A DNA stretch of 64,000 nt from an uncultured Clostridia bacterium. GTDB taxonomy: Bacteria > Bacillota > Clostridia > Christensenellales > Aristaeellaceae. The stretch lies in contig CAMFCQ010000003.1 of NCBI GenBank assembly GCA_945948915.1, forward strand, positions 1-64,000. Direction: 5' to 3'. This document shows, one piece after another, positions 4,078-60,209 of the stretch. Under the pieces are notes generated by a model. The model did not search any database and was not told where the DNA came from. It saw only the letters and a program-made list of their open reading frames with translations. The position numbers and the translations under genes are program-made. How positions within the stretch are numbered: position 1 is the first letter of the stretch; each line of letters begins with the position of its first letter.

Positions 4078-5853
4078 TTACGTCCCGCACAGGCCCGCGT
4101 CCATGGCCAGGCCGGCGTAGATGCCGCCCTGCCTGACCAGCTCGCTGTGCGTGCCGCGCTCCAGAATACCGTGCTCGCCGATGACGATGATCTCGTCGGC
4201 GTTTTTGATGGTCGAGAGCCGGTGCGCGATCACCAGCGTCGTGCGGCCCTTGGCCAGGCGGTCAAACGCCGCCTGAATGCGCCGTTCGGTCGCGGTATCC
4301 AGCGCGCTGGTCGCCTCATCGAGGATGAGGATGCGTGGGTTCTTGAGGAAGATGCGCGCGATGGAGACGCGCTGCTTCTGTCCGCCGGAGAGCATGATGC
4401 CGCGCTCGCCGACGATCGTGTTGTAGCCGTCGGGCATGTGCAGGATGTCCTCGTGAATCTCGGCCTGCTTGGCCGCCTCGATGACCTCCTCCATGGTCGC
4501 GTCCGGCCGGCCGTAGCGGATGTTCTCCAGAATCGTGCCCGCGAAGAGGAACACATCCTGCTGCACGATGCCGATGCTGCCGCGCAGGTCGGCCAGCTTG
4601 ATGCTGCGGATGTCCTGTCCGTCCAGGGTGATGCAGCCGCTGGTCGCCTCGTAGAAGCGCGGAATCAGCTGGCAGAGCGTCGATTTTCCGCCGCCGCTGG
4701 GGCCGACCAGGGCCAGCATCTCGCCCGGGCGCACGTGCAGATTGACGTGCTCGAGCACCGCCTCCTTCTTTTCGTCGTAGGAGAAGGTCACGTCCCTGAA
4801 ATCGATCTCGCCGTCCACATGATCAAGCGGCTTGGCGTCCGGGCTGTCCACGATATCCGGATCCTCGTGCATGATCGCGCGGAAGCGCTGGAAGCCCGCC
4901 ATGCCCTGCGTGAACTGCTCGGTGAACTGCGTCAGCTTGCGGATGGGGCTCTGCACGCTGGCAACGTACATGTTGAACGTGACCAGCGTGGCGATGTCCA
5001 TCTGATCCTTCATGATGAGGTAGCTGCCCGCGCAGATGACGGACAGGCTCATCAGGTTCATCATGAAGTCCGTGCCGGAGAAGAAGCCGGCCATGACCTT
5101 GTAGTAGCCTTTGCGGGCGTCCACATAGGCGTCCGTGCAGCGGGAGAACTTCTCGATCTCCTTGTCCTCGTTGCCGAAGGCCTTCGACACGCGGATGCCG
5201 GAGATGGAGCTCTCGATCTCCGCGTTGATGCCCGCCGTGCGCTGCTTGACGGCGCGGGAGGTGCGCATCATGCTCTGCCTGCGCAGCGCGACGAAGATGA
5301 CGATCAGCGGCACGCAGATCATCAGCACCAGCGCCAGCTGCGCCTTGATGCGAAACAGCACGATGAACGAGCCGGCCAGCGTCACGAAGGAGATGAACAG
5401 ATCCTCCGGGCCGTGGTGTGCCAGCTCCGTGATATCAAACAGATCCGTCGTCACGCGGGACATGAGCAATCCGGTGCGGTTCTTGTCGTAGAAGCTGAAG
5501 CCCAGCTTCTGCATGTGCGCGAAGATCGCCGCGCGCATGTCCGCCTCGATGCGCACGCCCATCATGTGGCCCAGATAGGCGACGAACCACTGCGCCGCCA
5601 TGCGCACGATGAACAGCACGAGCATCAGCAGCATCACCAGCACGAACGTGCGCATCATCTGGCCGGGAATGTACTCATAGAGCACCTTGCGCGTGATCAC
5701 CGGGAAGAGGATATCCACCAGGGCGATCAGCAGCGCGCAGGCCATGTCCTGCAGAAACAGGCGCAGGTGCGGCTTGTAGTAGGAGGCAAATTCGCGGATG
5801 GCGCCGCCCTTGGGCGCAGCCTTCTCTTCAAAGGCCGAACGATTTTCAGACAT
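4078..5853 (-). CDS. ABC exporter, fused membrane and ATPase domains (MsbA/LmrA type)
   Basis: A half-size type IV ABC exporter of about 591 aa that probably works as a homodimer in the membrane. Residues about 20-320 hold six membrane segments (for example [20 protein letters not shown]). The ATPase domain has Walker [11 protein letters not shown], signature LSGGQKQR, Walker [13 protein letters not shown] and H-loop IAHRLST, all intact. The ATG at 5853 has GGAGAG upstream; the open frame runs 14 codons further without a ribosome site. It starts 20 bases after the MATE stop codon, so the two efflux genes are probably co-transcribed. Substrate unknown. Confidence 0.9.
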
Positions 5854-12742: not shown

Positions 12743-12835
12743 ATTGAGGGAAGAATCTGGGGTTTTTGAGAAGCGCACTTTGCAAAACCGCGCAAAATCA
12801 GGAAAAATGTTATTCTGAGGAAACACGGAGGCAGC

Positions 12836-13567
12836 ATGGAGAGCATGACGGCGCGCATTGGTGCGCGCATCAGGGAAGCGAGAAAGGCCCGGGGCATGAC
12901 GCTCCAGCAGCTTGCAGACGCCATTCACAAGAGCCGCGCAAGCATGAGCAAGTACGAAAACGGCGAGATCACGCTGGACGTGCAGACGCTGCACGAGATC
13001 GGCCAGGCGCTGCATGTGCCGGCCGCGCAGCTGATGGAGGCCTGCACGCCGGAGGAAGCCGCGCCGCGCCCGACGGCCGAGCTGGCGGCAAGAAGCCCGT
13101 TTTTTCAGGCGGACAGGCTGTACTTCTATTTCTACGACGGCCGGTACGGGCGGCTCAAGAGCGGCGTCATCCACGTGCACAAGGGAGAGGGCAGCGGCGG
13201 CGAAGCCAGGGCGTCGCTGTCCATCAGCGCCGTCACGCCCGCGGGCCGCAGCAGCGAAACCTATTACTCCGGCCAGGTGGTCTACTCCGACATGCTCATC
13301 CGCTTTTCCTTCGTCAACCAGTACAATGCGCTGGAGGAGGATCTGCTCTACATCTTCAATCCCCTGGAGCGCCGGGACATGACCGAGGGCCTGTTGTGCG
13401 GCATCTCCAGCGCGGACCTGATGCCCTGCGCGTTCCGGTGCATGGTGACGCTCACGCCCAAGGAGCCGACGGAGGAGTTCATCCGCAGCCTGATGATCAC
13501 CAAAAAAGAGCTTCGCCGCTGGCAGAAGCTCAATATGCTCATTGTGGACAATCAGCTCTTCAAGTGA
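12836..13567 (+). CDS. XRE family transcriptional regulator
   Basis: A 243-aa DNA-binding protein. The first 65 residues form a classic XRE helix-turn-helix (RGMTLQQLADAIHKS, then SKYENGEI). The remaining part is a larger domain without Walker or cupin motifs that I recognise; it may bind a ligand or mediate dimerisation. ATG 12836 follows CGGAGG; a second ATG three codons in is possible but too far from that site. It is divergent from the NSS transporter and 100 bp upstream of the VIT-type gene, which has its own promoter. Confidence 0.85.
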   Translation: MESMTARIGARIREARKARGMTLQQLADAIHKSRASMSKYENGEITLDVQTLHEIGQALHVPAAQLMEACTPEEAAPRPTAELAARSPFFQADRLYFYFYDGRYGRLKSGVIHVHKGEGSGGEARASLSISAVTPAGRSSETYYSGQVVYSDMLIRFSFVNQYNALEEDLLYIFNPLERRDMTEGLLCGISSADLMPCAFRCMVTLTPKEPTEEFIRSLMITKKELRRWQKLNMLIVDNQLFK

Positions 13568-15353: not shown

Positions 15354-16136
15354 TCATTCCGCCGTCTTGCCGAATTCCTCGTCCGCCAGCAGCGCCTTGA
15401 GCTTCCTGTCCGGCGCGGTCTCGTCCGTATCGGGGATGGACAGGTCGATGGAATCGCCCGGCGCCTCGAGCGCGACGATCTTGGTGTGGTTGGTCTCGCC
15501 CGTGAGCGCAAAGCGCATCGCCACATCGCCGCGGCCTTGGAAGTGCATGGGAATCAGGATGCGCGGCTTGACGGTCATCACAAAGTAGCCCGCGCCCGCG
15601 TCGTACATGCTGCCCTGGCGCGGATCGACCGGGAAGAACGCCAGGTCAATCTGCTCCTGCGGGATTGGCGCCACGCAGTCGTAAAACGCCTTTTCCGCCG
15701 CCTCGATCTCGGTGATGGAGGATTCGTCCCGCCAGTGCCACAGGTTCAGGTCGCCTGCGTGGAAGATGCGGATGCCCGCATAGGAAACCAGAAAGGACAC
15801 GCCCTCGTCCGTGGAGCCGAACGCAGTGACCTCCACGCTGCCAAAGCCCTGATGCTCGCCCGGGCTCATACGGATGCCGCGGTGGGGCTGCGGCACGTCA
15901 AAGCCCACGATGTATACGGCGTTCTCGCCGCACAGGCTGTAGATCGATTCGGAAAAATGATCGTCATGGCGATGGCTGACAAACACATAGAGCTTTTTGT
16001 ATTCGGCCAGCGTCTCCTTCCCGGGAAGAATGCGCCTGTCCGCGCCGTGCTCGCTTGCGTCAAAGAGAAATCCCGTTTCGCCGATCGTCACCAGAAAGCC
16101 GCTGCCTCCCAGGTATTCCACTGCAATGTCCTTCAT
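15354..16136 (-). CDS. Metallo-beta-lactamase fold hydrolase
   Basis: An MBL-fold hydrolase of about 260 aa. It has the metal motif SHRHDDHF, HAGD at the second-metal position and a terminal PMHFQG. The arrangement recalls the UlaG/UPF0173 branch, cytosolic enzymes acting on lactones or phosphodiesters. I place the start at ATG 16136 (MKDIAVEYLG) by similarity; AAAGGAG is 13 bases upstream, which is long, and an ATG pair at 16169-16172 is an alternative. Not in an obvious operon. Substrate unknown. Confidence 0.8.
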   Translation of the reverse strand: MKDIAVEYLGGSGFLVTIGETGFLFDASEHGADRRILPGKETLAEYKKLYVFVSHRHDDHFSESIYSLCGENAVYIVGFDVPQPHRGIRMSPGEHQGFGSVEVTAFGSTDEGVSFLVSYAGIRIFHAGDLNLWHWRDESSITEIEAAEKAFYDCVAPIPQEQIDLAFFPVDPRQGSMYDAGAGYFVMTVKPRILIPMHFQGRGDVAMRFALTGETNHTKIVALEAPGDSIDLSIPDTDETAPDRKLKALLADEEFGKTAE

Positions 16137-16326
16137 AGGGCTGCAAACGCTCCTTTCCTGATCTGTCATCAACGCTTCGTGATTTGGATGCTGCCAGTCA
16201 CTTCCATTTTATCCATTTTTTACCACTTGTCAATCTTTTCTTCCACTTTTACCCCACGAGCACACCATTCACACGGGAAATCCGTGCCGAATTCAGGGTA
16301 TATTCACCACAATTCGCCTATTTCCG

Positions 16327-17856
16327 TCAAATTTCGTTCAGCGTCAATCCATGTTCCGTGAGCTGTGCCTCCCGCGTGCACACCGCCTTCATGAACCTTT
16401 CGTCGTGCGAGACGGCGATGATGCAGCCGGGATACGACGCAAACAGCGTGCGCACCACCGGGCCGGACAGCGGCGAGAGGTTGCGGGTTGGCTCGTCCAG
16501 CAGCAGCACATTCGCGCCGGAGGCCGCCATCATCAGGAACATGAGCTTGGCCTTCTGCCCGCCGGAGAGCCCGCGGCAGGGATGATTCATCTCCTCGCCG
16601 GTGAACTTCATGGAGCCCAGCGCGACGGTGTTTCTGACCTGCTCCTCCTTGTCGCCCGTCCGCTCCAGCAGCTCAAGCGGCGTCCTGTCCATGTCGAGCA
16701 GATCGCCCGGGTCCTGCGGCATGTAGAAGACGCGCAGGTCTTCTCTCTTTTTAAGCTGATCGCGGATGACGCGCAGCAGCGTGGATTTGCCCACACCGTT
16801 CCGCCCGGTGATGCATACCTTATCCACAGCGCGCACGCAGATGTGGATATCCTGGGCGAGCGTCCTGTCTTCGATGCACAGCCGGTCAAGGTGCAGGTCG
16901 AGCACCACCTTGGTTGGCGGCAGCGGCGGGCAGGTCAGCCTGGCGAAGATCGCCTCCTCGCTTTCGGGCATGGCGGTCATCTCCTGGGCCTCGCGCTCAA
17001 AGCGCCTGCCCATGGACAGCACGGTGTGCATCTTCTTCTTGAGCAGGCGCGCTGTGCCGGGGTCCTGGCGGGAGACGGCGTTCTGCTCGTGCTCCACGCG
17101 GGCACGGATCTGCTCGTACCGGCGCATCTTCTTGTCATGCTCCTCACGCTCCTTGCGGGCGACCTGCGCCTGATGGGCAAACAGGTCCGCGCGGGCCTGC
17201 ACAAATTCCCCGTATCCCTGCCGGCACACGCTCACGCGCGGCACCTGCCGCCTGCGCAGCCGCTCGATGAGCACCACGCCCGTGGCGGCCTGCTCAAGCA
17301 GCGCCTCGTCGTGGGAGACGAACAGCACCGCCAGGCCGCAGCTGCACAGAAAGTCCGACAGAAAGCGCACGGTTTCGCCGTCCAAGTCGTTGCTCGGCTC
17401 ATCCAGCAGCAGCAGCTCCGGCTCGTCCATGAGCAATCGCGCCAGCTGCAGCTTCACGCGCTCGCCGCCGGAGAAGGTATCCATGCGCTGCTCGCTGTAG
17501 AACACGTCCGCGCTCAGGCGCAGCCTGGCGGCCAGAGAGCCCAGCTGGGCGGGCGTCTGATCGTAGAAGCGCTCATGCCCGCAGAAGTACGCGTAGGCGC
17601 TCAGGCCGCGGTCCCCTTCGGGCAGCTCCTGCGGCAGATAGCCCGTGCGGAACGTGTTGACGATCCTGCCATGTACCTCCAGATAGGCGTGGATGGATTC
17701 GTCTCCGAGGATCGCGCGCAGCAGCGAGGATTTTCCGTTGCCCTCCTCGCCGATGAGCGCCAGCCGCTCGCCGGGCTTTATGGCAAAGGAGAGGTCTTCG
17801 ATGAGGTTCACCAGGTCTTTTTTGTGGGTGAGCGTCAGATTCTGTATGGTCAGCAT
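16327..17856 (-). CDS. ABC-F family ATPase, candidate ribosome-protection antibiotic resistance protein
   Basis: A 509-aa soluble protein with two ATPase domains and no membrane segment. First domain: Walker A GEEGNGKSS, signature FSGGERVKLQLA, Walker B LLLLDEPSNDLD. Second: GRNGVGKST, LSGGQKAKL, VLLLDEPTRNLS. The charged linker between them (about residues 215-310, many EREE/RRYEQIR repeats) is the part that reaches into the ribosome in resistance-type ABC-F proteins. ATG 17856 has CAGGGAG upstream. It is preceded by a 220-base leader with a strong promoter, a three-codon ORF and an intrinsic terminator, the layout of an antibiotic-induced attenuator. Confidence 0.9.
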   Translation of the reverse strand: MLTIQNLTLTHKKDLVNLIEDLSFAIKPGERLALIGEEGNGKSSLLRAILGDESIHAYLEVHGRIVNTFRTGYLPQELPEGDRGLSAYAYFCGHERFYDQTPAQLGSLAARLRLSADVFYSEQRMDTFSGGERVKLQLARLLMDEPELLLLDEPSNDLDGETVRFLSDFLCSCGLAVLFVSHDEALLEQAATGVVLIERLRRRQVPRVSVCRQGYGEFVQARADLFAHQAQVARKEREEHDKKMRRYEQIRARVEHEQNAVSRQDPGTARLLKKKMHTVLSMGRRFEREAQEMTAMPESEEAIFARLTCPPLPPTKVVLDLHLDRLCIEDRTLAQDIHICVRAVDKVCITGRNGVGKSTLLRVIRDQLKKREDLRVFYMPQDPGDLLDMDRTPLELLERTGDKEEQVRNTVALGSMKFTGEEMNHPCRGLSGGQKAKLMFLMMAASGANVLLLDEPTRNLSPLSGPVVRTLFASYPGCIIAVSHDERFMKAVCTREAQLTEHGLTLNEI

Positions 17857-17873
17857 GCAATACTCCCTGATTG

Positions 17874-17941
17874 AAAAAAAGTCCGCCCCCGGCTGCTGCC
17901 GGAGACGGAACGCAAACACGCTGTCCGGTCAATGGGCGGAC
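17874..17941 (-). terminator. Leader attenuator (intrinsic terminator) of the ABC-F gene
   Basis: On the minus strand GTCCGCCC and GGGGCGGAC are the outer arms of a long hairpin, followed at once by seven T, all before the ribosome site. A competing pairing exists: GGAACGCA (in the leader near 17990-18000) with TGCGTTCC inside the terminator. Confidence 0.8.
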
Positions 17942-18032
17942 AGAACGAAGGCGCGCGATTTCATCCCGTGGCACAGCAAAGCAAGCCGCCTGCGTTCCCG
18001 CAGCCGGAGGCCATGTTTCACAAAAGACGAAA

Positions 18033-18044
18033 TCAGATGCGCAT
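18033..18044 (-). CDS. Three-codon leader ORF (Met-Arg-Ile-stop)
   Basis: ATG CGC ATC TGA lies about 30 nt after the predicted transcription start of the ABC-F leader and is preceded by GGGGTGAAG at ribosome-site distance. Very short leader ORFs that stall drug-bound ribosomes are known upstream of some ABC-F genes; the role here is inferred. Confidence 0.55.
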   Translation of the reverse strand: MRI

Positions 18045-18079
18045 GATCGATTCTTCACCCCACTGTTAAGTCTTGGTGT

Positions 18080-51188: not shown

Positions 51189-51229
51189 AGAATAAGTGAA
51201 TCACCTTATCCTGAATCCCGGAGGTAATG

Positions 51230-52285
51230 ATGCGTATTTTTGACTATCGAGCGGTTTATCCAAGTCTGCTGTCCCCGGAGATCGTCGGTTATCTCTCACA
51301 GATCCATGAATACAAAGGCCAGCAGAATCTCTTTATTGAAGCAAAACCCGATGCGCTGTTGGAGCTGCTGGATATTGCCCGAATCCAGAGCACGGAAGCT
51401 TCCAACCGGATTGAGGGCATCTATACTTCCGATGATCGTTTAAAAAAGCTCGTGCAATCGAAAACCATGCCCCGGACGCGAAATGAGCGCGAAATCGCTG
51501 GTTACCGCGACGTGCTGGCTACGATTCACGAAAGCCATGACTTCATTCCGCCGCGCCCGGGCATGATTCTCCAGCTGCATCGGGACCTTTACAAGTTCTC
51601 TGGAATGAATGTTGGCGGCGCATACAAGGCGACGGACAACGTCATCGCTGAAGAACGCGAAGGAGAGCGGTTTGTTCGCTTCGTTCCGGTGGAAGCCTGG
51701 CAGACGCCGGAGGCGATCGAGCAAATCTGCTATGCGCTGAACGACGCGCTGAGAGACCCGCAAATCGATCCGCTGCTGGTCATTCCCCTGTTCATCCTCG
51801 ACTTCCTTTGCATCCATCCCTTCAGCGACGGCAACGGGCGCATGAGCCGTCTGCTGACGCTGCTTCTCCTCTACCGCAGCGGGTATATTGTGGGCAAGTA
51901 CATCAGTGTAGAAAAGGCGATTGCCGACAGCAAGGAAACCTACTATGAAGCGCTGCATGACAGCTCCATCGGCTGGCATGAGGGGACGAATGATTCGCTG
52001 CCCTTTGTGCGTTATATGCTCGGTGTCATCGTTTCCAGCTACCGGGAGTTTTCTTCCCGCGTCGAGCTGCTGACCAACCGCGGACTTTCCAAGCCCGACC
52101 GGGTACGGGAAATCATCCGCGGCTCACTCGGAAAGATCACCAAGGCCGAAATCATGGCAAAGTGTCCGGATATCAGCCAGATCACCGTGCAGCGTACACT
52201 GGCGGAGCTGCTGCAAAACCATGAGATCATCAAGCTGAGCGGCGGGCGATATACCGCCTATGTCTGGAACAGAGAAAACGAATAA
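51230..52285 (+). CDS. Fic family protein (predicted AMP-transferase), autoinhibited class II
   Basis: A 351-aa protein. The catalytic motif [12 protein letters not shown] is complete, so it should transfer AMP (or a related group) from nucleotide to a protein hydroxyl. An N-terminal helix carries SNRIEG, the S/TxxxE(G/N) motif whose Glu blocks the active site in class II Fic proteins. A C-terminal winged-helix part ([20 protein letters not shown]) is common in this group. ATG 51230 is five bases from GGAGG; the ATG just before is too close. It precedes hsdM by 24 bases. Confidence 0.9.
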
Positions 52286-52309: not shown

Positions 52310-53914
52310 ATGATTACCGGTGAACTGAAAAGCAAAATCGATAGCCTTTGGGAGATTTTCTGGACGGGCGGCCTGACCAACCCGCTCGACGTCATCGAGC
52401 AGATGACCTATCTGATGTTCATCCACGACCTCGATGAAGCCGACAACACCCGCGCCAAGGAGAGCGCCATGCTCGGCCTGCCGTATGAAAGCATGTTCTC
52501 CAAAGAGGTGAGAATCGGGGACCGCGTCATCGACGGCAGTCAGCTCAAATGGAGCGTGTTCCACGACTTCCCGGCCGGCAAGATGTATAAGATCATGCAG
52601 GAGTGGGTGTTCCCGTTTATCAAAACGCTGCATGGTAACAGAGAAAGCGCCTATTCCAAATACATGGACGACGCCATCTTCAAGATTCCCACGCCGCTGA
52701 TGCTTGACAAAATCGTCACCGCGATGGACGCCATCTACATGCAGATGGTACAGCTTCAGGCTACGGATGTGCGCGGCGATCTGTACGAATACCTGCTCGG
52801 CAAGCTGGCGACGGCGGGCGTCAACGGGCAGTTCCGCACGCCGCGCCACATCATCCGCATGATGGTGGAGATGATGGAGCCGAAGGCGGACGAGATCATC
52901 TGCGATCCGGCCTGCGGAACCTCCGGCTTCCTCGTCGCGGCGAGCGAATACCTGAAGGAGCACCGCAAGCAGGAGGTCTTCTTCAACCGCGCCAACAAGG
53001 AACACTACATGAACCACATGTTCCACGGCTACGATATGGACCGCACTATGCTGCGCATCGGCGCGATGAACATGATGACCCACGGCGTGGACAACCCCTT
53101 CATCGAGTACCGCGACAGCCTCTCCGACCAGAATACGGACCGCGACATGTATTCCCTCATTCTGGCAAATCCGCCGTTCAAGGGCTCGCTGGATTACGAC
53201 ATCGTGAGCACCGATTTGCTCAAGCTCTGCAAGACGAAAAAGACCGAGCTGCTGTTCCTTGCGTTGTTCCTGAAGATGCTGAAGGTGGGCGGGCGCTGCG
53301 CCTGCATCGTGCCGGACGGCGTGCTCTTCGGCTCGTCCACGGCGCACAAGGCCATTCGCATGGAGCTCATTGAAAACAACCGGCTGGAGGCAGTCATCTC
53401 CATGCCCAGCGGCGTGTTCAAGCCCTATGCGGGCGTATCCACCGCTGTGCTGATCTTTACCAAAACCGGGCACGGCGGTACGGACAAGGTCTGGTTCTAC
53501 GACATGCAGGCGGATGGGTTTAGTTTGGACGACAAGCGCACGCTCATTGCGGAGAATGACATTCCTGATATTATCGAGAGGTTTCATTCCCTCGCCCTCG
53601 CCCTCTCAGTCAGCAAAGCTGACAGCTCCCCCAGAGGGGGAGCCAAGGGGGACGGGCCGCTGAACGACAGCTCCCCCAAAGGGGGAGCCAAGGGCTGTTC
53701 CGAGTGTGACCGCAAGCGCACTGACAGGAGCTTCCTCGTGCCCAAGCAGGAAATCGTGGACAACGGCTATGACCTGTCCATCAACAAGTACAAGCAGACC
53801 GAATATGTGGCGGTGGAGTATCCGCCGACGCAGGAGATTATGGCTCGAATTGATGAAAACATGATGAAGCTGGGCGAAACACTCGAGAAGCTACGAAACA
53901 TGCTGGAGCAGTGA
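52310..53914 (+). CDS. hsdM: Type I restriction-modification system, DNA methyltransferase subunit
   Basis: A 534-aa N6-adenine methyltransferase. N-terminal HsdM domain, then the AdoMet motif [13 protein letters not shown] and catalytic NPPF ([10 protein letters not shown]). It modifies the target set by HsdS. Residues about 429-463 ([14 protein letters not shown], repeated in part as [11 protein letters not shown]) are an insertion relative to the usual run IIERF-H-L...[12 protein letters not shown] and are encoded by two palindromic repeat units, in frame. ATG 52310 follows AAAGGAG. Member of the operon Fic, hsdM, BRO-N, hsdS. Confidence 0.95.
53594..53698. repeat. Palindromic repeat inserted in frame in hsdM
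   Basis: Begins CCCTCTCAGTCAGC and holds two hairpins 45 bp apart, GCTCCCCCAGAGGGGGAGC (53625-53643) and GCTCCCCCAAAGGGGGAGC (53670-53688). Start and hairpin match the left end of the units at 55988-56470. Confidence 0.8.
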
Positions 53915-53927
53915 GGAAAGGATACCG

Positions 53928-54821
53928 ATGATGATCGAAAACAACAACTTGCAGCTGTTTGAAAACCAGCTGATTCGAACGGCATGGGATGAGGAAAAGG
54001 AAGAATGGTATTTCTCCATTGTTGATGCCGTGATTATTCTGACCGATAGTCCGGATTACAACACCGGAAGAAAATACTGGAACAAACTGAAGCAGCGCAT
54101 GAAAGCGGAAGGCAGCGAACTGGTGTCAAATTGTCACCAGTTGAAGATGACCGCGGCAGACGGCAAACGCCGCCTGACAGATGTAGCGACTACGGAGCAG
54201 CTTCTGCGCATCATCGAATCCATTCCTTCCAAAAAAGCGGAACCCTTTAAACTCTGGCTGGCGCAGGTCGGTCGTGAGCGGATCGAGGAGATCATTGATC
54301 CCGAGCTGACCATTGAGCGTGCTTTGGAGGTCTATGCAAAGAAGGGCTATCCGCCCGAGTGGATCAATCAGCGCCTGCAAACCATCCGTGCCCGCAAGGA
54401 GCTGACGGACGAGTGGAAAATGCACGGCATTCAAAAGGGACGGGAATACGCGATTCTGACCGATGAGATTACAGAGGCTTGGTCTGGTATGACGACACGC
54501 AAATACAAGAATCTGAAGGGACTGAAAAGCGAAAACCTGCGCGACAACATGAGCACGCTGGAGCTTGCCCTGAACATGCTGGCCGAGGCGACAACCACAG
54601 AGCTGACCCGTGTACAGAATCCGCAGGGCTTAACAGAAAATCAGGTGGTTGCAAGGCAGGGCGGCGGAATCGCCGGGGATGCCAGAAAACAGATTGAAGC
54701 GCAGACCGGGCGACCGGTGGTGACATCAGCCAATGCCACAACGCTGTATTCGGTTGTCACGCAGGCCATTGAAGGCGTTGCGCAGAATGACGATAACGAG
54801 ACGAATGGAGGGGGAGAGTGA
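53928..54821 (+). CDS. BRO-N (phage antirepressor-like) domain protein
   Basis: A 297-aa protein. Residues 5-110 form a BRO-N type DNA-binding domain (LFENQLIRTAWDEEKEEWYF, SIVDAVIILTDS, then YWNKLKQR); the middle (ERIEEIIDPELTIERALEVY) and the Gly/Gln-rich C-terminus are shared with DinD-like proteins found beside type I restriction systems. Role unknown; DNA binding or response to damage is an inference. ATG 53928 follows AAAGGA. Its stop overlaps the hsdS start by one base (TGATG), so it belongs to the operon. Confidence 0.8.
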   Translation: MMIENNNLQLFENQLIRTAWDEEKEEWYFSIVDAVIILTDSPDYNTGRKYWNKLKQRMKAEGSELVSNCHQLKMTAADGKRRLTDVATTEQLLRIIESIPSKKAEPFKLWLAQVGRERIEEIIDPELTIERALEVYAKKGYPPEWINQRLQTIRARKELTDEWKMHGIQKGREYAILTDEITEAWSGMTTRKYKNLKGLKSENLRDNMSTLELALNMLAEATTTELTRVQNPQGLTENQVVARQGGGIAGDARKQIEAQTGRPVVTSANATTLYSVVTQAIEGVAQNDDNETNGGGE

Positions 54822-55984
54822 TGGCGAAGCTGGGGGAAATATGTTCTTTTCAATCAGGTGGAACTCCATCACGCAAGAATCCAGAGTTCTATAATGGAAG
54901 TATTCCTTGGATTACGACAGTTGCACTAAATGGAGAAATGATTGACGAGAGTAATGCCGTCGATATGATTTCTGAAAAAGCGATTAAGAACAGTACTGCG
55001 AAGATTGTCCCTCCACATTCAATTATGGTAGGAACAAGAGTTGGAATTGGAAAAGTTGCAATCAATAGTGTGCCAATGTCAACGAGCCAAGATGTCGTTT
55101 CTTTAGTTGGAATTGATGAAAGCGCATGGGATAAGGAATATTTGATAAAGTTCTTACAAGGGAAAAGTGCTTATTTAATATCTCAGTCGCGCGGTGCAAC
55201 GATTAAAGGAATTAAAATTGAAATCCTTGCTGATATGGAATTGCCTCAACATGCACTTCCTACCCAGCGCCGCATTGCCACCACGCTGAACAAGGTGTCC
55301 GAGGGCATTGCGCTGTGCAAGCAGATGCTGGCGGACTTGGATGAGCTGGTTAAATCGCAATTTGTCGAGATGTTTGGTACATTACATGATAACCCCAAAG
55401 GGCTTGAAATTGTTACTATTGAAGATTTGTGTACATTGATTAAAGACGGTACGCATCAGACTCCTACATACACAGAAGACAGGAATGCAGGCTATAAATT
55501 CTTGTCTTCTAAGGATGTTATGACACAAAAAATATGCTGGGAGGACATCAAATATATTCCTGCTGACCTGCACGAGAAACTATATGCGACAATTCAGCCC
55601 AGGCGGAATGACATTCTAATGTCAAAGAATGGTGTGAATTATGGTGTTGCTGCGGTGAATGATACGGATGAAATCTTCGATATTTATGTAAGTTTGGCTT
55701 TGCTTCGACCCAGAGTTGATAAAGTGAACCCTGTATACTTTAGATGTGCAATTAATAATCCGGACACAAAGCGGCAATTTGATGGTAGCATTAAGGGAAT
55801 TGGTGTTCCTAACCTTCATTTGGGCGAAATCAAGAAAACAAAGATTCTGTTGCCTCCAATGAGCAAGCAGAATGAATTTGTTGCCTTCGTTGCCCAGACC
55901 GACAAATCAAAATTTGCAGTGCAGCAGCAGTTGGCGGAGCTGGAAACGCTCAAAAAGAGCTTGATGCAAGAATACTTTGGGTGA
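54821..55984 (+). CDS. hsdS: Type I restriction-modification system, specificity subunit
   Basis: A 387-aa DNA-recognition subunit. Two target-recognition domains are seen: TRD1 (FQSGGTPSRKNPEFYNGSIP, GATIKGIKIEILADMELP) and TRD2 (CTLIKDGTHQTPTY, GVPNLHLGEIKKTKILLPP), each followed by a conserved helix (TQRRIATTLNKVSEGI and AVQQQLAELETLKKSL). The TRD parts are clearly richer in A and T than the conserved helices and neighbours, as expected of exchanged domains. ATG 54821 follows GGAGGGGGAG. The bipartite target cannot be predicted. Confidence 0.93.
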   Translation: MAKLGEICSFQSGGTPSRKNPEFYNGSIPWITTVALNGEMIDESNAVDMISEKAIKNSTAKIVPPHSIMVGTRVGIGKVAINSVPMSTSQDVVSLVGIDESAWDKEYLIKFLQGKSAYLISQSRGATIKGIKIEILADMELPQHALPTQRRIATTLNKVSEGIALCKQMLADLDELVKSQFVEMFGTLHDNPKGLEIVTIEDLCTLIKDGTHQTPTYTEDRNAGYKFLSSKDVMTQKICWEDIKYIPADLHEKLYATIQPRRNDILMSKNGVNYGVAAVNDTDEIFDIYVSLALLRPRVDKVNPVYFRCAINNPDTKRQFDGSIKGIGVPNLHLGEIKKTKILLPPMSKQNEFVAFVAQTDKSKFAVQQQLAELETLKKSLMQEYFG

Positions 55985-55987
55985 TTA

Positions 55988-56470
55988 CGCCCTCTCAGGC
56001 ACTAACGCGCCAGCTCTCCCAAGGGGAGAGCCGAGATGTCTGCGCTGCTTTTGCTGTTGACTCGATAAAGTCGGGAGATAAACCTTGCCTCTCCCTGTGG
56101 GAGAGGTGTCACGGCAACGCCGTGACGGAGAGGGTACTCCCGCAAGAGGTACACCCTCTCAGGCGCTAACGCGCCAGTTCTCCCTAAGGGAGAGCCAAGA
56201 TGTCTGCGCTGCTTTTGCTGTTGACTCGATAAAGTCGGGAGATGCCCCTTGCCTCTCCCTATGGGAGAGGTGTCACGGCAACGCCGTGACGGAGAGGGTA
56301 CTCCCGCAAGAGGTACACCCTCTCAGGCGCTAACGCGCCAGTTCTCCCTAAGGGAGAGCCAAGATGTCTGCGCTGCTTTTGCTGTTGACTCGATAAAGTC
56401 GGGAGATAAGCCTTGCCTCTCCCTATGGGAGAGGTGTCACGGCAACGCCGTGACGGAGAGGGCATTCCCC
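55988..56470. repeat. 164-bp tandem repeat array, three units
   Basis: Units begin CCTCTCAGGC at 55991, 56155 and 56319, exactly 164 bp apart; the third is incomplete and ends near 56470. Each has an inward-facing pair of related palindromes (CTCCC..GGGAGAG near the left, and GTCACGGC..GCCGTGAC with CTCTCCC..GGGAGAG at the right). Fills the gap between hsdS and the DUF559 gene. Confidence 0.9.
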
Positions 56471-56486
56471 AAAGGAGGCATCCGAC

Positions 56487-56885
56487 ATGCCCGTCATGAA
56501 GAACAACCAACTTCTCTCCCGCGCCCGTGAGCTTCGCCGCGACATGACGCCGCAGGAAAGAAAGCTATGGTATGTATATCTGAGAAAATACCCAATAAAG
56601 ATATACAAGCAACGGATCATTGATTCATTTATTGTCGATTTCTATTGTGCCCGCGCAAAGCTGGTCATTGAACTGGATGGATCACAGCACTATACTTCTC
56701 AGGGATTGGCGTATGATCGTGAGCGGACTGCCGTGCTTTCGAAATATGATCTTTCCGTGCTGCGGTTCACCAATTTCGACATAGATCATCATTTCGATGC
56801 GGTATGCCGAGCAATCAACAATGAGATACAAACGAGGATTTCTTTGACCTTCGGCGAATCATCTCCAACAACAGATCATCATTAA
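56487..56885 (+). CDS. DUF559 (Vsr-like) endonuclease-domain protein
   Basis: A 132-aa protein of the PD-(D/E)XK-like DUF559 family. Motifs are RELRRDMTPQERKLW, FIVDFYCARAKLVIELDGSQ with the acidic metal-binding residues, and LRFTNFDI. Members are predicted DNA nucleases, often seen as passengers in mobile regions. ATG 56487 follows AAAGGAGG, which lies right after the last repeat unit. It is followed 24 bases on by hsdR; whether it joins the restriction complex is not known. Confidence 0.88.
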   Translation: MPVMKNNQLLSRARELRRDMTPQERKLWYVYLRKYPIKIYKQRIIDSFIVDFYCARAKLVIELDGSQHYTSQGLAYDRERTAVLSKYDLSVLRFTNFDIDHHFDAVCRAINNEIQTRISLTFGESSPTTDHH

Positions 56886-56909
56886 CCCACCATGAAAGAG
56901 GGAATCCCC

Positions 56910-59900
56910 ATGACCAACTTCGACTACCTTCTCTCCACCCCGTCTTTCCACGCCTTCGCCGACGCTGCCGTCTCCGCCGAGCGCATCCTGCCCATCGACC
57001 CGGCAGCCTGCGCGCTGAGCTGCCGCCGGGCGATGGAGATCGCCGTCAAGTGGATGTATTCGGTGGACAACTCGCTGGTGAAGCCGTGGGACGATAAGCT
57101 GGTCAACCTCATGGGCACGGAGGAATTCCGCGGCATTGTGGATGAGAAGCTGCTGGTTCGCATGGATTTCATTCGCAGGATGGGCAACAACGCCGCGCAC
57201 GCCGGCAAAACCGTGAGCCGGGAGCAGGCGGAGCTGTGCCTTCAAAACCTGTTTTGCTTTCTGGATTTCGTGGCCTATTGTTATGGGGATGAATATACCG
57301 CAAGAGCGTATGATTCCTCTCTGCTTGCGCAGCAGCCGGAAGCTGCTCCCGCGCCGCAGGCTTCCGACGCGGAGATCAGGCTCGACGAGCTGATAAAAGA
57401 AAACGCTGCGCTCAAGGAGGCACTGACTCAGCGCCGCCAGACGCAGTGGCAGACCTATGTGCCCAAGCCGCTGGACATCTCCGAATACGAAACCTGCAGG
57501 CTGTATATTGACGCGATGCTGACGGACGCGGGTTGGATCAGGGGAAGAAACTGGCTCGACGAGGTAGAGCTTCCCGGCATGCCCAACAAGAATGAGGTCG
57601 GCTATGCGGACTATGTGCTCTATGGCGATGATGGAAGGGCGCTCGCGGTCATCGAAGCCAAGCGCACCTGCGTCGATCCGGTGAAAGGACGCCAGCAGGC
57701 AAAGCTGTATGCGGACATCATCGAGAAACAGCAGGGCCGCCGCCCGGTCATCTTCCTGACGAACGGCTTTGAAACGCGCATTGTAGATGGGCAGTATAAG
57801 GAACGCCAGGTTGCATCGATCTATGCCAAGCGCGATCTGGAAAAGTGGTTCAACCTCATGCAGATGCGCACCAGCCTGAAGAATGCAGAGGTGGACAAGC
57901 ACATCGCCGGGCGCTACTATCAGGAGGGTGCGGTGAAGGCGGTCTGCACAAGCTTTGATGAAGGCAACCGCCGCAAGGCGCTGTTGGTCATGGCGACGGG
58001 ATCCGGCAAGACGCGCACGGTGATTGCGCTGTGCAAGGTGCTGCTGGAGCGCGGCTGGGTGCGGGACATTCTGTTCCTTGCGGACCGCAACTCGCTGGTG
58101 ACGCAGGCCAAGCGCAGCTTTGTCAATCTGTTGCCCGACCTCTCTGTGACCAATCTCTGCGAGGAGAAGGACAACCTGACGGCGCACTGCGTGTTCTCCA
58201 CCTATCAGACCATGATGAACTGCATCGACGCTGTTTGGGATGAAGAGGGCAAGCTGTTCACCTGCGGCCATTTCGATCTGATCATCTGCGATGAGGCGCA
58301 TCGCTCCATTTACAACAAGTACAGGGACATCTTCACCTATTTCGATGCGCCGCTCGTCGGTCTCACGGCGACGCCCAAGGATGACATCGACAAGAACACC
58401 TATGAGGTTTTCGAGCTGGGCAGCGGCATGCCCACCTATGGCTATGAACTGGCGCAGGCAGTCAAAGATGGCTATCTGGTGGATTTCATGTCGGTGGAGA
58501 CGACGCTGAAGTTCATCCAACAGGGCATCGTCTACGACGAGTTGTCCGACGAGGAGAAGCAGGCCTATGAGGATACCTTTGAGGATGAAAACGGTGAGTT
58601 GCCGGAGAGCATTGCCTCCTCCGCGCTGAACGAATGGGTGTTCAACGAGGACACGATTCGTGAGGTGCTGAATGTGCTCATAAAGCATGGCCTGCACATC
58701 GACTACGGCAATAAAATCGGCAAGACGATCATCTTTGCCAAGAATCACGCCCACGCGGAGAAGATACTGGAAGTGTTCGGCCAGGAGTATCCGCATCTGC
58801 CCGGCTATGCCAAGGTGATCGACAACTACATGACCTATGCACAGAGCGCGATTGACGAGTTTTCCGACCCGGACAAGCTGCCGCAGATCGCCATTTCCGT
58901 GGATATGCTGGATACCGGCATCGATGTACCGGAGGTGCTCAATCTCGTCTTTTTCAAAAAGGTGATGAGCAAGGCGAAATTCTGGCAGATGATCGGCCGA
59001 GGAACTCGCCTGTGCCCGAAGCTGATGGACGGTAAAGATAAGGACAAGTTCTATATCTTCGATTTCTGCGGCAATTTTGAGTTCTTCCGCATGAACAAGG
59101 GCAAGCCCACCGCCAACATGATTGCGCTTCAGGGCGCCATTTTCCAGTTCAAAGCGCAGATTGCCTATAAGCTGCAGGATCTGGCCTATCAGACCGAAGA
59201 GCTGATTGCCTTCCGGCGGTCGCTTGTGGAGGACATGGTCGGTAAGGTAAGGGAGCTGAACAAAGAGAATTTCGCTGTGCGCCAGCATCTTCGGTATGTG
59301 GAGCAGTACGCCAACCCGGACAACTATCAGACGCTCACCTATGAGGACACGCTGACAATGGGGCAGGAGCTGGCGCCGCTGATTGTGCCAGACCATGACG
59401 ACGCAAAGGCGCTTCGCTTTGACGCTCTGATGTACGGCATAGAGCTGGCCTATCTGATCGGAAAGAAGTATACCCGGGCGCGCAAGGATCTGCTCAAGAA
59501 GGTTTCCTCCGTTGCAAGCGTCGCCAACATCCCGGAGATCATGATGCAGGCTGAGCTGATCGACAAGATTCTGCATACCGATTATCTGGACAATGCCGGC
59601 ATCAACGAGTTTGAGCATATTCGCGAGAACCTGCGCGACCTGATGAAATACATCCCTGTCGGCGGCGCGGTTTATAATACCAATTTCGATGACGAAATCC
59701 TCTCCATCGAATGGAACGAATCCGAGCTGGAAAACGATGATCTCAAGAATTACAAGGCCAAGGCGGAATACTATGTCCGGCAGCATCAGGATCATATCGC
59801 CATCGCCAAGCTGAAAACCAACATTCCGCTCAATGCGATGGACATTGAGTCTCTGGAAAGCATTCTTTGGAGCGAGGTGGGCACCCGGCAGGATTACGAG

Positions 59901-60209
59901 GCGGAATATGGAAAGAAGCCGCTCGGTGAGTTTGTCCGGGAAATCGTTGGTATGGACATGAACGCTGCCAAGGAAGCGTTTTCCGCGTATCTGGACGAGA
60001 CGAATCTGAACGACCGGCAAATCTATTTCGTCAATCAGATCATTGAATACATCGTTCACAATGGGATCATGAAGGATTTTTCCGTGCTGCAGGAAACGCC
60101 GTTCACAGACCGGGGGAATATCGTGGAGCTGTTTGGCGGGAATATAACGGCATGGGCGGGAATCCGTAAGGTTATTGAGCAGATCAACCGGAATGCAGAA
60201 GCAATCTAA
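56910..60209 (+). CDS. hsdR: Type I restriction-modification system, restriction (motor and nuclease) subunit
   Basis: A 1099-aa protein. Residues 1-130 form a DUF4145-like helical domain (RRAMEIAVKWMYSVD, GNNAAHAG). An HsdR-N nuclease domain follows (EVGYADYVLYG, LAVIEAKRT) and then a superfamily 2 translocase: Walker A ATGSGKTRT, DEAH (ICDEAHRSI), GLTATP and QMIGRGTRLCP. The protein cuts unmodified DNA with HsdM and HsdS. ATG 56910 is chosen for GAGGG seven bases upstream; the ATG at 56892 lacks such a site. It converges with the next gene, four bases apart. Confidence 0.95.
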   Translation: MTNFDYLLSTPSFHAFADAAVSAERILPIDPAACALSCRRAMEIAVKWMYSVDNSLVKPWDDKLVNLMGTEEFRGIVDEKLLVRMDFIRRMGNNAAHAGKTVSREQAELCLQNLFCFLDFVAYCYGDEYTARAYDSSLLAQQPEAAPAPQASDAEIRLDELIKENAALKEALTQRRQTQWQTYVPKPLDISEYETCRLYIDAMLTDAGWIRGRNWLDEVELPGMPNKNEVGYADYVLYGDDGRALAVIEAKRTCVDPVKGRQQAKLYADIIEKQQGRRPVIFLTNGFETRIVDGQYKERQVASIYAKRDLEKWFNLMQMRTSLKNAEVDKHIAGRYYQEGAVKAVCTSFDEGNRRKALLVMATGSGKTRTVIALCKVLLERGWVRDILFLADRNSLVTQAKRSFVNLLPDLSVTNLCEEKDNLTAHCVFSTYQTMMNCIDAVWDEEGKLFTCGHFDLIICDEAHRSIYNKYRDIFTYFDAPLVGLTATPKDDIDKNTYEVFELGSGMPTYGYELAQAVKDGYLVDFMSVETTLKFIQQGIVYDELSDEEKQAYEDTFEDENGELPESIASSALNEWVFNEDTIREVLNVLIKHGLHIDYGNKIGKTIIFAKNHAHAEKILEVFGQEYPHLPGYAKVIDNYMTYAQSAIDEFSDPDKLPQIAISVDMLDTGIDVPEVLNLVFFKKVMSKAKFWQMIGRGTRLCPKLMDGKDKDKFYIFDFCGNFEFFRMNKGKPTANMIALQGAIFQFKAQIAYKLQDLAYQTEELIAFRRSLVEDMVGKVRELNKENFAVRQHLRYVEQYANPDNYQTLTYEDTLTMGQELAPLIVPDHDDAKALRFDALMYGIELAYLIGKKYTRARKDLLKKVSSVASVANIPEIMMQAELIDKILHTDYLDNAGINEFEHIRENLRDLMKYIPVGGAVYNTNFDDEILSIEWNESELENDDLKNYKAKAEYYVRQHQDHIAIAKLKTNIPLNAMDIESLESILWSEVGTRQDYEAEYGKKPLGEFVREIVGMDMNAAKEAFSAYLDETNLNDRQIYFVNQIIEYIVHNGIMKDFSVLQETPFTDRGNIVELFGGNITAWAGIRKVIEQINRNAEAI

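Follow-up and report, generated by a model that had tools for sequence, protein, structure and literature searches.

Published accounts of palindromic elements standing in frame within coding genes concern Rickettsia, Wolbachia and REP-bearing bacteria, and most of the sites are scattered (PMC10969869, PMC2996958, PMC3733652, PMC2817692, PMC3874165). The Rickettsia palindromic elements (RPE) are described as in-frame palindromes in unrelated coding genes, to which they add peptides (PMC10969869, PMC2996958). REP elements, assigned to the GTAG and CGTC superfamilies, are described as short, abundant and mostly intergenic palindromes that often form inverted dimers and of which some are intragenic; in recB of Xanthomonas about the same site carries an intragenic REP in two species (PMC3733652). 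The word Firmicutes is absent from the main text of the latter paper, and the titles and abstract beginnings of the literature searched, in which few subscription journals were covered, disclosed no such insertions in Clostridia or in HsdM.

The locus described here lies in a 64,000-nucleotide stretch of DNA from an uncultured Clostridia bacterium, referred to as the window, and comprises a type I restriction-modification operon with the following features.

52310-53914, + strand: hsdM, 534 aa, type I methyltransferase subunit (Pfam N6_Mtase, HsdM_N), frame open through the insertion
About 53594-53695, + strand: extra in-frame segment of 34 residues (alignment of 83 HsdM proteins; linker length table, 123 rows)
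53601-53644, + strand: palindromic unit 1, L type, made of CCCTCTCAGTC, hairpin A and hairpin B (model R1, 66.5 bits)
53656-53689, + strand: palindromic unit 2, L type, left end missing (model R1, 29.9 bits, model positions 9-44)
53928-54821, + strand: gene with BRO-N domain (Pfam Bro-N), between hsdM and hsdS
54818-55984, + strand: hsdS, specificity subunit (Pfam Methylase_S)
55986-56477, no strand assigned: array of three 164-bp units in the intergenic stretch after hsdS, with one L copy (+) and one R copy (-) per unit
55990-56032, 56154-56196 and 56318-56360, + strand: L copies of the array (covariance model search)
56087-56134, 56251-56298 and 56415-56462, - strand: R copies of the array (covariance model search)
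56892-60209, + strand: hsdR, 1105 aa (Pfam ResIII, EcoEI_R_C, DUF4145, HSDR_N)

The window HsdM carries the HsdM_N and N6_Mtase domains of a type I methyltransferase subunit, its gene is adjoined by hsdS and hsdR, and residues 1-533 match PADLOC MTase_I with 583.9 bits. Among type I HsdM proteins with known structures, 5ybb, 3ufb and 2okc belong to the same protein family, 5ybb_A being the best match (E 1.5e-46). A Fic-domain gene (51227-52285; PADLOC SoFic, 122 bits) is located directly upstream of hsdM. The BRO-N gene matches the PADLOC candidate defence family PDC-S13 (437.6 bits), while a 132-aa ORF at 56487-56885, between the repeat array and hsdR, shows a weak PADLOC match to DpdF; this ORF may resemble a small DUF559-type endonuclease.

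The window protein was aligned with those of 80 genome loci, the best 80 of 591 candidates ranked by likeness to it, and of two viral loci (L089 and L091; the incomplete L090 and L092 among the four viral matches were left out). Alignment of these 83 HsdM proteins, which include homologues without the repeat, revealed that 34 residues of the window protein are extra and sit after alignment position 429. A sequence-only reading of the window had placed a palindromic repeat in frame at about residues 429-463, and these limits were right within about one codon. It was confirmed that the extra segment is made of a palindromic repeat with two hairpins, which is present twice and is related to the downstream array. 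Palindromes were located at 53623-53644 and 53668-53689 using a pattern with up to 3 mismatches; this pattern had 5 matches in the window, 2 in hsdM and 3 in the array, whereas 100 shuffles gave 0.01 matches on average. Unit 1 was part of the training set of model R1, and the shuffle test is independent of that model. Units 1 and 2 share a 29-nt direct repeat that is 97% identical, and the strand of the insert folds with -61.3 kcal/mol (z -3.5). The left part of the insert (21 nt) is 81, 71 and 71% identical to the array copies, which bears out the likeness to the array noticed earlier, and within the array the first unit shares 94% identity with unit 2 and 91% with unit 3. When searched in its own genome the insert matched itself alone; the lack of a second match and the only 71-81% likeness to the array count against the reading preferred below.

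Analysis of the repeat indicated that a unit measures about 44-50 nt and comprises two hairpins, and that units are often arranged as inverted pairs. Each begins with CCCTCTC(A/C)GTC, followed by hairpin A and then by hairpin B (CTCYCCC, a short loop and the complement). By eye, the L form and the reverse-complemented R form resemble variants of one unit, and a B variant contains CCTTCCCC in hairpin B. Two covariance models, R1 and R2, were used, the E-values of which are rough. R1 copies were present in all of the 12 genomes searched (E <= 0.01), with at least 5 to at least 144 matches per genome when at most 150 candidates were scored in each. The genome of the window gave 11 R1 matches, and 8 were in this operon among the matches listed. 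A strict pattern matched this locus only, but the covariance models find copies elsewhere in G000 and in its relatives, so that a repeat unique to this locus was rejected. Comparison with Rfam yielded sub-threshold matches only. The number of stop-free frames per repeat was 3.32 of 6 versus 4.47 in shuffles (38 units); as this is below the shuffles, the repeats do not look designed for coding, and their pre-adaptation for coding is unsupported.

Changes on both sides of a pair were counted in 19 cells of the L and 16 cells of the R alignment, numbers reached by none of 500 shuffles, while covariation by further pair types was not above the shuffles (454/500 for L and 124/500 for R reached the count). 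Such paired changes, together with the strong folding, are what one would expect if the hairpins acted in the mRNA or DNA of the operon, through pausing, RNA processing or attenuation of hsdS, and the peptide were incidental. However, the counts of paired changes come mostly from copies outside hsdM, such changes are also expected of a mobile palindrome, and both orientations are present in hsdM; we therefore regard a role of this kind as very improbable.

The repeat resembles REP elements in being an abundant short palindrome that is mainly intergenic (R1 in 12 genomes; sample of G002, the genome of locus L010) and in forming inverted dimers, with L on the + and R on the - strand of each array unit. 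Unlike them it has two hairpins per unit, and it is without the unpaired GTAG or CGTC end tag: no GTAG was seen by eye within the units of alignments A4 and A5, and in the CGTC of R units the G and the last C are paired in 11/11 rows and the T in 6/11. REP elements that accompany a RAYT differ as well, since no IS200-like gene was flanked by R1 in 11 loci. IS200-like genes (PF01797) occurred in 6/12 draft genomes and were absent from G000, G001 and G002, so that an IS200-like transposase as mover of the repeat has no support; a search for a parent or mobilising element, which covered IS200-like genes, found none. Small size, inverted ends and the lack of an own gene are shared with MITEs, RUP, BOX and ERIC as these are presented in PMC10969869. 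Set against a MITE in particular, inverted L and R ends are present, and no target duplication was recognised by eye. As for the RPE, whose descriptions and not whose sequences were compared, the proposed likeness holds for the way of working, a palindrome in frame in coding genes that adds a peptide, and does not extend to membership; the hosts are other ones, and unlike the RPE as described, inserts at one protein site occur in several branches and in both orientations.

Nine of the 83 proteins carried inserts at the linker (window, L009, L010, L013, L015, L021, L037, L056 and L068), and other insertions of at least 3 residues were confined to the distant viral protein L091, in which 17 residues are inserted at position 105 and a further 4 at the linker. 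The loci had been ranked by likeness to the window, which may favour inserts, and the frequency of 8/80 in this set is thus not an unbiased rate. Wider sampling covered 396 genomes of the order, which yielded 15 further loci, and 391 of the class, which yielded 29; L271 is without the region, three class matches had no locus, and 43 loci were read, 2 of which had inserts (L184 and L283). As 3 of the 43 duplicated earlier loci, 123 distinct HsdM rows were obtained. Measured from F425 to S474 in window numbering, the linker is 14 residues long in 107 of the 123 rows; four rows have 13, 16, 16 and 18 residues, L032 has 10, and the other 11 have 27-64. All 11 linkers longer than 18 contained palindromic units, each in frame. 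A repeat-free relative carrying the segment as an ordinary linker was sought among the 123 rows and none was found; the length table rules that explanation out. An assembly artefact in one genome is also unlikely, because the insert-bearing records stem from several studies, as judged by their titles, according to which eight of them are metagenome-assembled.

The hsdM copies of nine of the 11 long linkers matched R1 or R2 at E <= 0.001, and five of these (L009, L010, L013, L068 and L283) were outside the training sets. The L184 insert was a weak model match (E 0.024), and that of L037, matched by neither model, has a hairpin that fits the pattern of the B variant with 1 mismatch. The inserts differ in composition: two L units in the window, one L unit in L009 and in L283, units in opposite orientation in L010, an L-R pair in L015 and L021, an R unit in L056 and the B variant in L013, L068, L184 and L037. 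Further insertions of at least 3 residues in the larger alignment were extensions at the start, where start codons are unsettled, and insertions near 62-72 and 105-108, among them 24 extra residues of L283 at position 108. Locus L196 (G218) encodes a 734-aa HsdM frame with insertions, whose C-terminal extension resembles HsdS by eye; an M-S fusion is possible.

Linker columns had a mean entropy of 1.66 bits as compared with 0.83 overall (12 rows with an insert or remnant excluded). The alignments of 5ybb, 3ufb and 2okc to the window HsdM break at the linker, and 13 solved relatives identified by sequence align as far as window residues 380-428, one of them restarting at 461. A surface loop, as proposed for the insertion site by the sequence-only reading, is thus indirectly supported by a variable region at which solved relatives stop aligning, and the linker may well be exposed. 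More variable stretches of HsdM, at alignment positions 142-147 and 477-485, hold no repeat, so variability alone does not explain the insertion site. Broken hsdM copies would score lower and were not retrieved, and the in-frame survival of inserts is therefore in part a sampling effect. Inserts in hsdM were associated with other repeats in the locus (5/8 versus 5/72 loci, Fisher p 0.0005), an association given little weight because hsdR accounts for part of the other repeats (L047, L068), the sequence of three insert loci stops shortly downstream of hsdM, and likeness to the window decided the ranking of the loci.

The sparing of the more variable parts of HsdM would suit a target preference of the element that is met by this stretch of hsdM, such that landing and not survival explains the recurrence. 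By eye, 9/11 inserts start behind linker residue 3, and the left edge of several is rich in pyrimidines, as is the end of the repeat itself. On the contrary, L010 and L021 have other edges and a target duplication was not recognised by eye, and we consider a preference of this type unlikely.

In a phylogenetic tree of HsdM constructed without the linker columns, nine inserts required 6 changes of the trait, 5 of them forced. With 11 inserts there were 7 changes, 6 of which were forced by branches with SH-aLRT of at least 95 (a quick tree without bootstrap), or 8 changes if insert types were told apart; these changes may be gains or losses. A single clade of insert-bearing HsdM was rejected (p-AU 3e-44), and the same linker holds differing unit types and orientations in separate branches. 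The edges shared among the B inserts and among L015, L056 and L021 imply that exchange of the linker may have spread some inserts, and we put the number of events at at least four to six, not eleven.

One may go further and suppose a few old insertions in the hsdM linker, spread by recombination or horizontal transfer, with turnover of units in place. By unit type alone about 4-5 events suffice. The B-variant inserts of L013, L068, L184 and L037 have similar edges, and those of L015, L056 and L021 a common right edge, in both cases by eye. Close HsdM relatives moreover occur in records named as several phyla: L018, L032, L052 and L066 are in records named Fretibacterium (Synergistota), Spirochaetales, Muribaculaceae and Alloscardovia (Bifidobacteriaceae), a distribution that suggests horizontal transfer or misbinning. 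Against this, the inserts of the window and L009, of L010 and of L283 differ in orientation or tree place, the sisters L010 and L013 differ in insert type, and the inserts of L010 and L015 best match copies of their own genomes. A single clade is also rejected on the rest of the gene, with which exchange of the linker alone is still compatible. On balance we find it doubtful that few old insertions account for the pattern.

Matches of the inserts were compared across genomes for L010 and L015. The best-scoring other match of the L010 insert in its own genome is about 4 kb away and 87% identical over 95 nt, while the best-scoring match in 11 other genomes is 80% identical over 93 nt, higher identities being found over shorter stretches only. 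The four best other matches of the L015 insert lie in its own genome, 2-3 kb away. Between close relatives the number of units differs. The window and L009 sequences differ at 28 of 210 fourfold sites; unit 1 is common to both, with differences only in the loop of hairpin A, unit 2 is absent from L009, and the two inserts differ by exactly 15 residues, that is 45 nt. L021 and L032 share 97% identity in the 1302 nt upstream and the 206 nt downstream of the site, and L032 is 87 nt shorter (L021:9277-9379; L032:9277-9292) and retains CCCTCTCAG, apparently a 9-nt remnant of the element.

Copies within other reading frames, for which the sequence-only reading had called, were found in the genomes of relatives; in the window itself, according to the model search, the repeat is restricted to hsdM and the array.

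L010:13797-15110: HsdR with in-frame units after DUF4145
L047, about 5032-5120: HsdR insert after DUF4145
L141, 1501-1552 (G008): HsdR insert after DUF4145
L173:5816-6724, 12758-13246 and 15972-18047 (G003, contig C22): phage-type genes with in-frame units (endolysin, portal and phrog_12105 protein)

The HsdR linker following DUF4145 carries in-frame palindromic units in three genomes (L010, L047 and L068/G008), unlike that of the window, in which the model search found no repeat; it is a second site of recurrent insertion. In 46 measurable rows this linker is 62-69 residues long in 42, 73 in three and 83 in L010. The restriction-modification operon of the L010 genome has in-frame units in both HsdM and HsdR. 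An in-frame element near the start of the HsdR of G005 (L180) was set aside because the start codon is unsure; a search for this HsdR in viral contigs gave no match. In the L013 genome the endolysin has an in-frame unit between CHAP and PG_binding_1, and three places of the portal protein hold such units, which at one place were recognised from the hairpins alone. Alignment with 34 of 45 viral relatives revealed extra residues at the same three places in 7, 5 and 1 of the 34, which identifies them as variable spots of the portal. Other frames also hold copies, for example that of a mannosyltransferase in L174.

A 382-kb sample of the repeat-rich G002, consisting of stretches chosen for their matches, contained 75 R1 copies, none of which lies within or between Pfam domains of a reading frame, in a test that covered 16 frames of at least 200 aa and would miss shorter frames and genes without a Pfam domain. 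All 16 frames hold copies at least 60 nt from their ends; 14 of them are without a Pfam domain and in the other 2 the copy precedes the domain. The lack of copies in the Pfam-bearing parts of these frames fits their purging from genes.

The recurrence of inserts at one site, although the linker is otherwise nearly fixed in length, the existence of another such site in these operons, within HsdR (L010, L047, L068/G008), and the difference of exactly 15 residues or 45 nt between the window and L009 inserts might suggest that insertions are favoured, either as the linker peptide would tune assembly or activity of the methyltransferase or as gain and loss of units would switch restriction-modification on and off. 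The inserted peptides, however, have no common sequence, frame or orientation, and the same repeats are also found in phage-type genes of another genome; from these sequence comparisons selection for the inserts appears distinctly unlikely.

The extra segment is made of the repeat units described above, its reading frame is kept, and the number of units differs between close relatives. We consider it probable that a mobile REP/MITE-like repeat inserted into the HsdM linker and survived where it was tolerated in frame. The repeat, which we infer to be mobile, would land widely in genomes of gut Clostridia and would at times enter the short linker behind the methyltransferase core of HsdM. If this linker is exposed and tolerant, as seems likely, insertions that are in frame and stop-free may survive as near-neutral added peptides. 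Against an easy tolerance stand the nearly fixed length of the linker in the absence of the repeat and the more variable stretches that are free of it. The low number of stop-free frames in the repeat, the covariation by further pair types that does not exceed the shuffles, and the sampling effects noted above also weigh against this reading.

One site of one protein has been invaded in several branches by several unit types, and relatives with an empty site exist. A broader proposal, which we put forward tentatively and hold to be rather unlikely, is that a mobile palindrome of gut Clostridia preferentially lands or is retained in linkers of type I restriction-modification subunits, namely the one behind the HsdM core and the one joining DUF4145 to the motor part of HsdR, the gain, doubling and loss of units there being a used source of change in the assembly or activity of the defence system. 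Whether such inserts decorate the protein without harm or open a way to new protein parts is testable with natural alleles in an enzyme for which simple assays exist, and the near-identical pair L021/L032 adds a natural comparison with and without the element.
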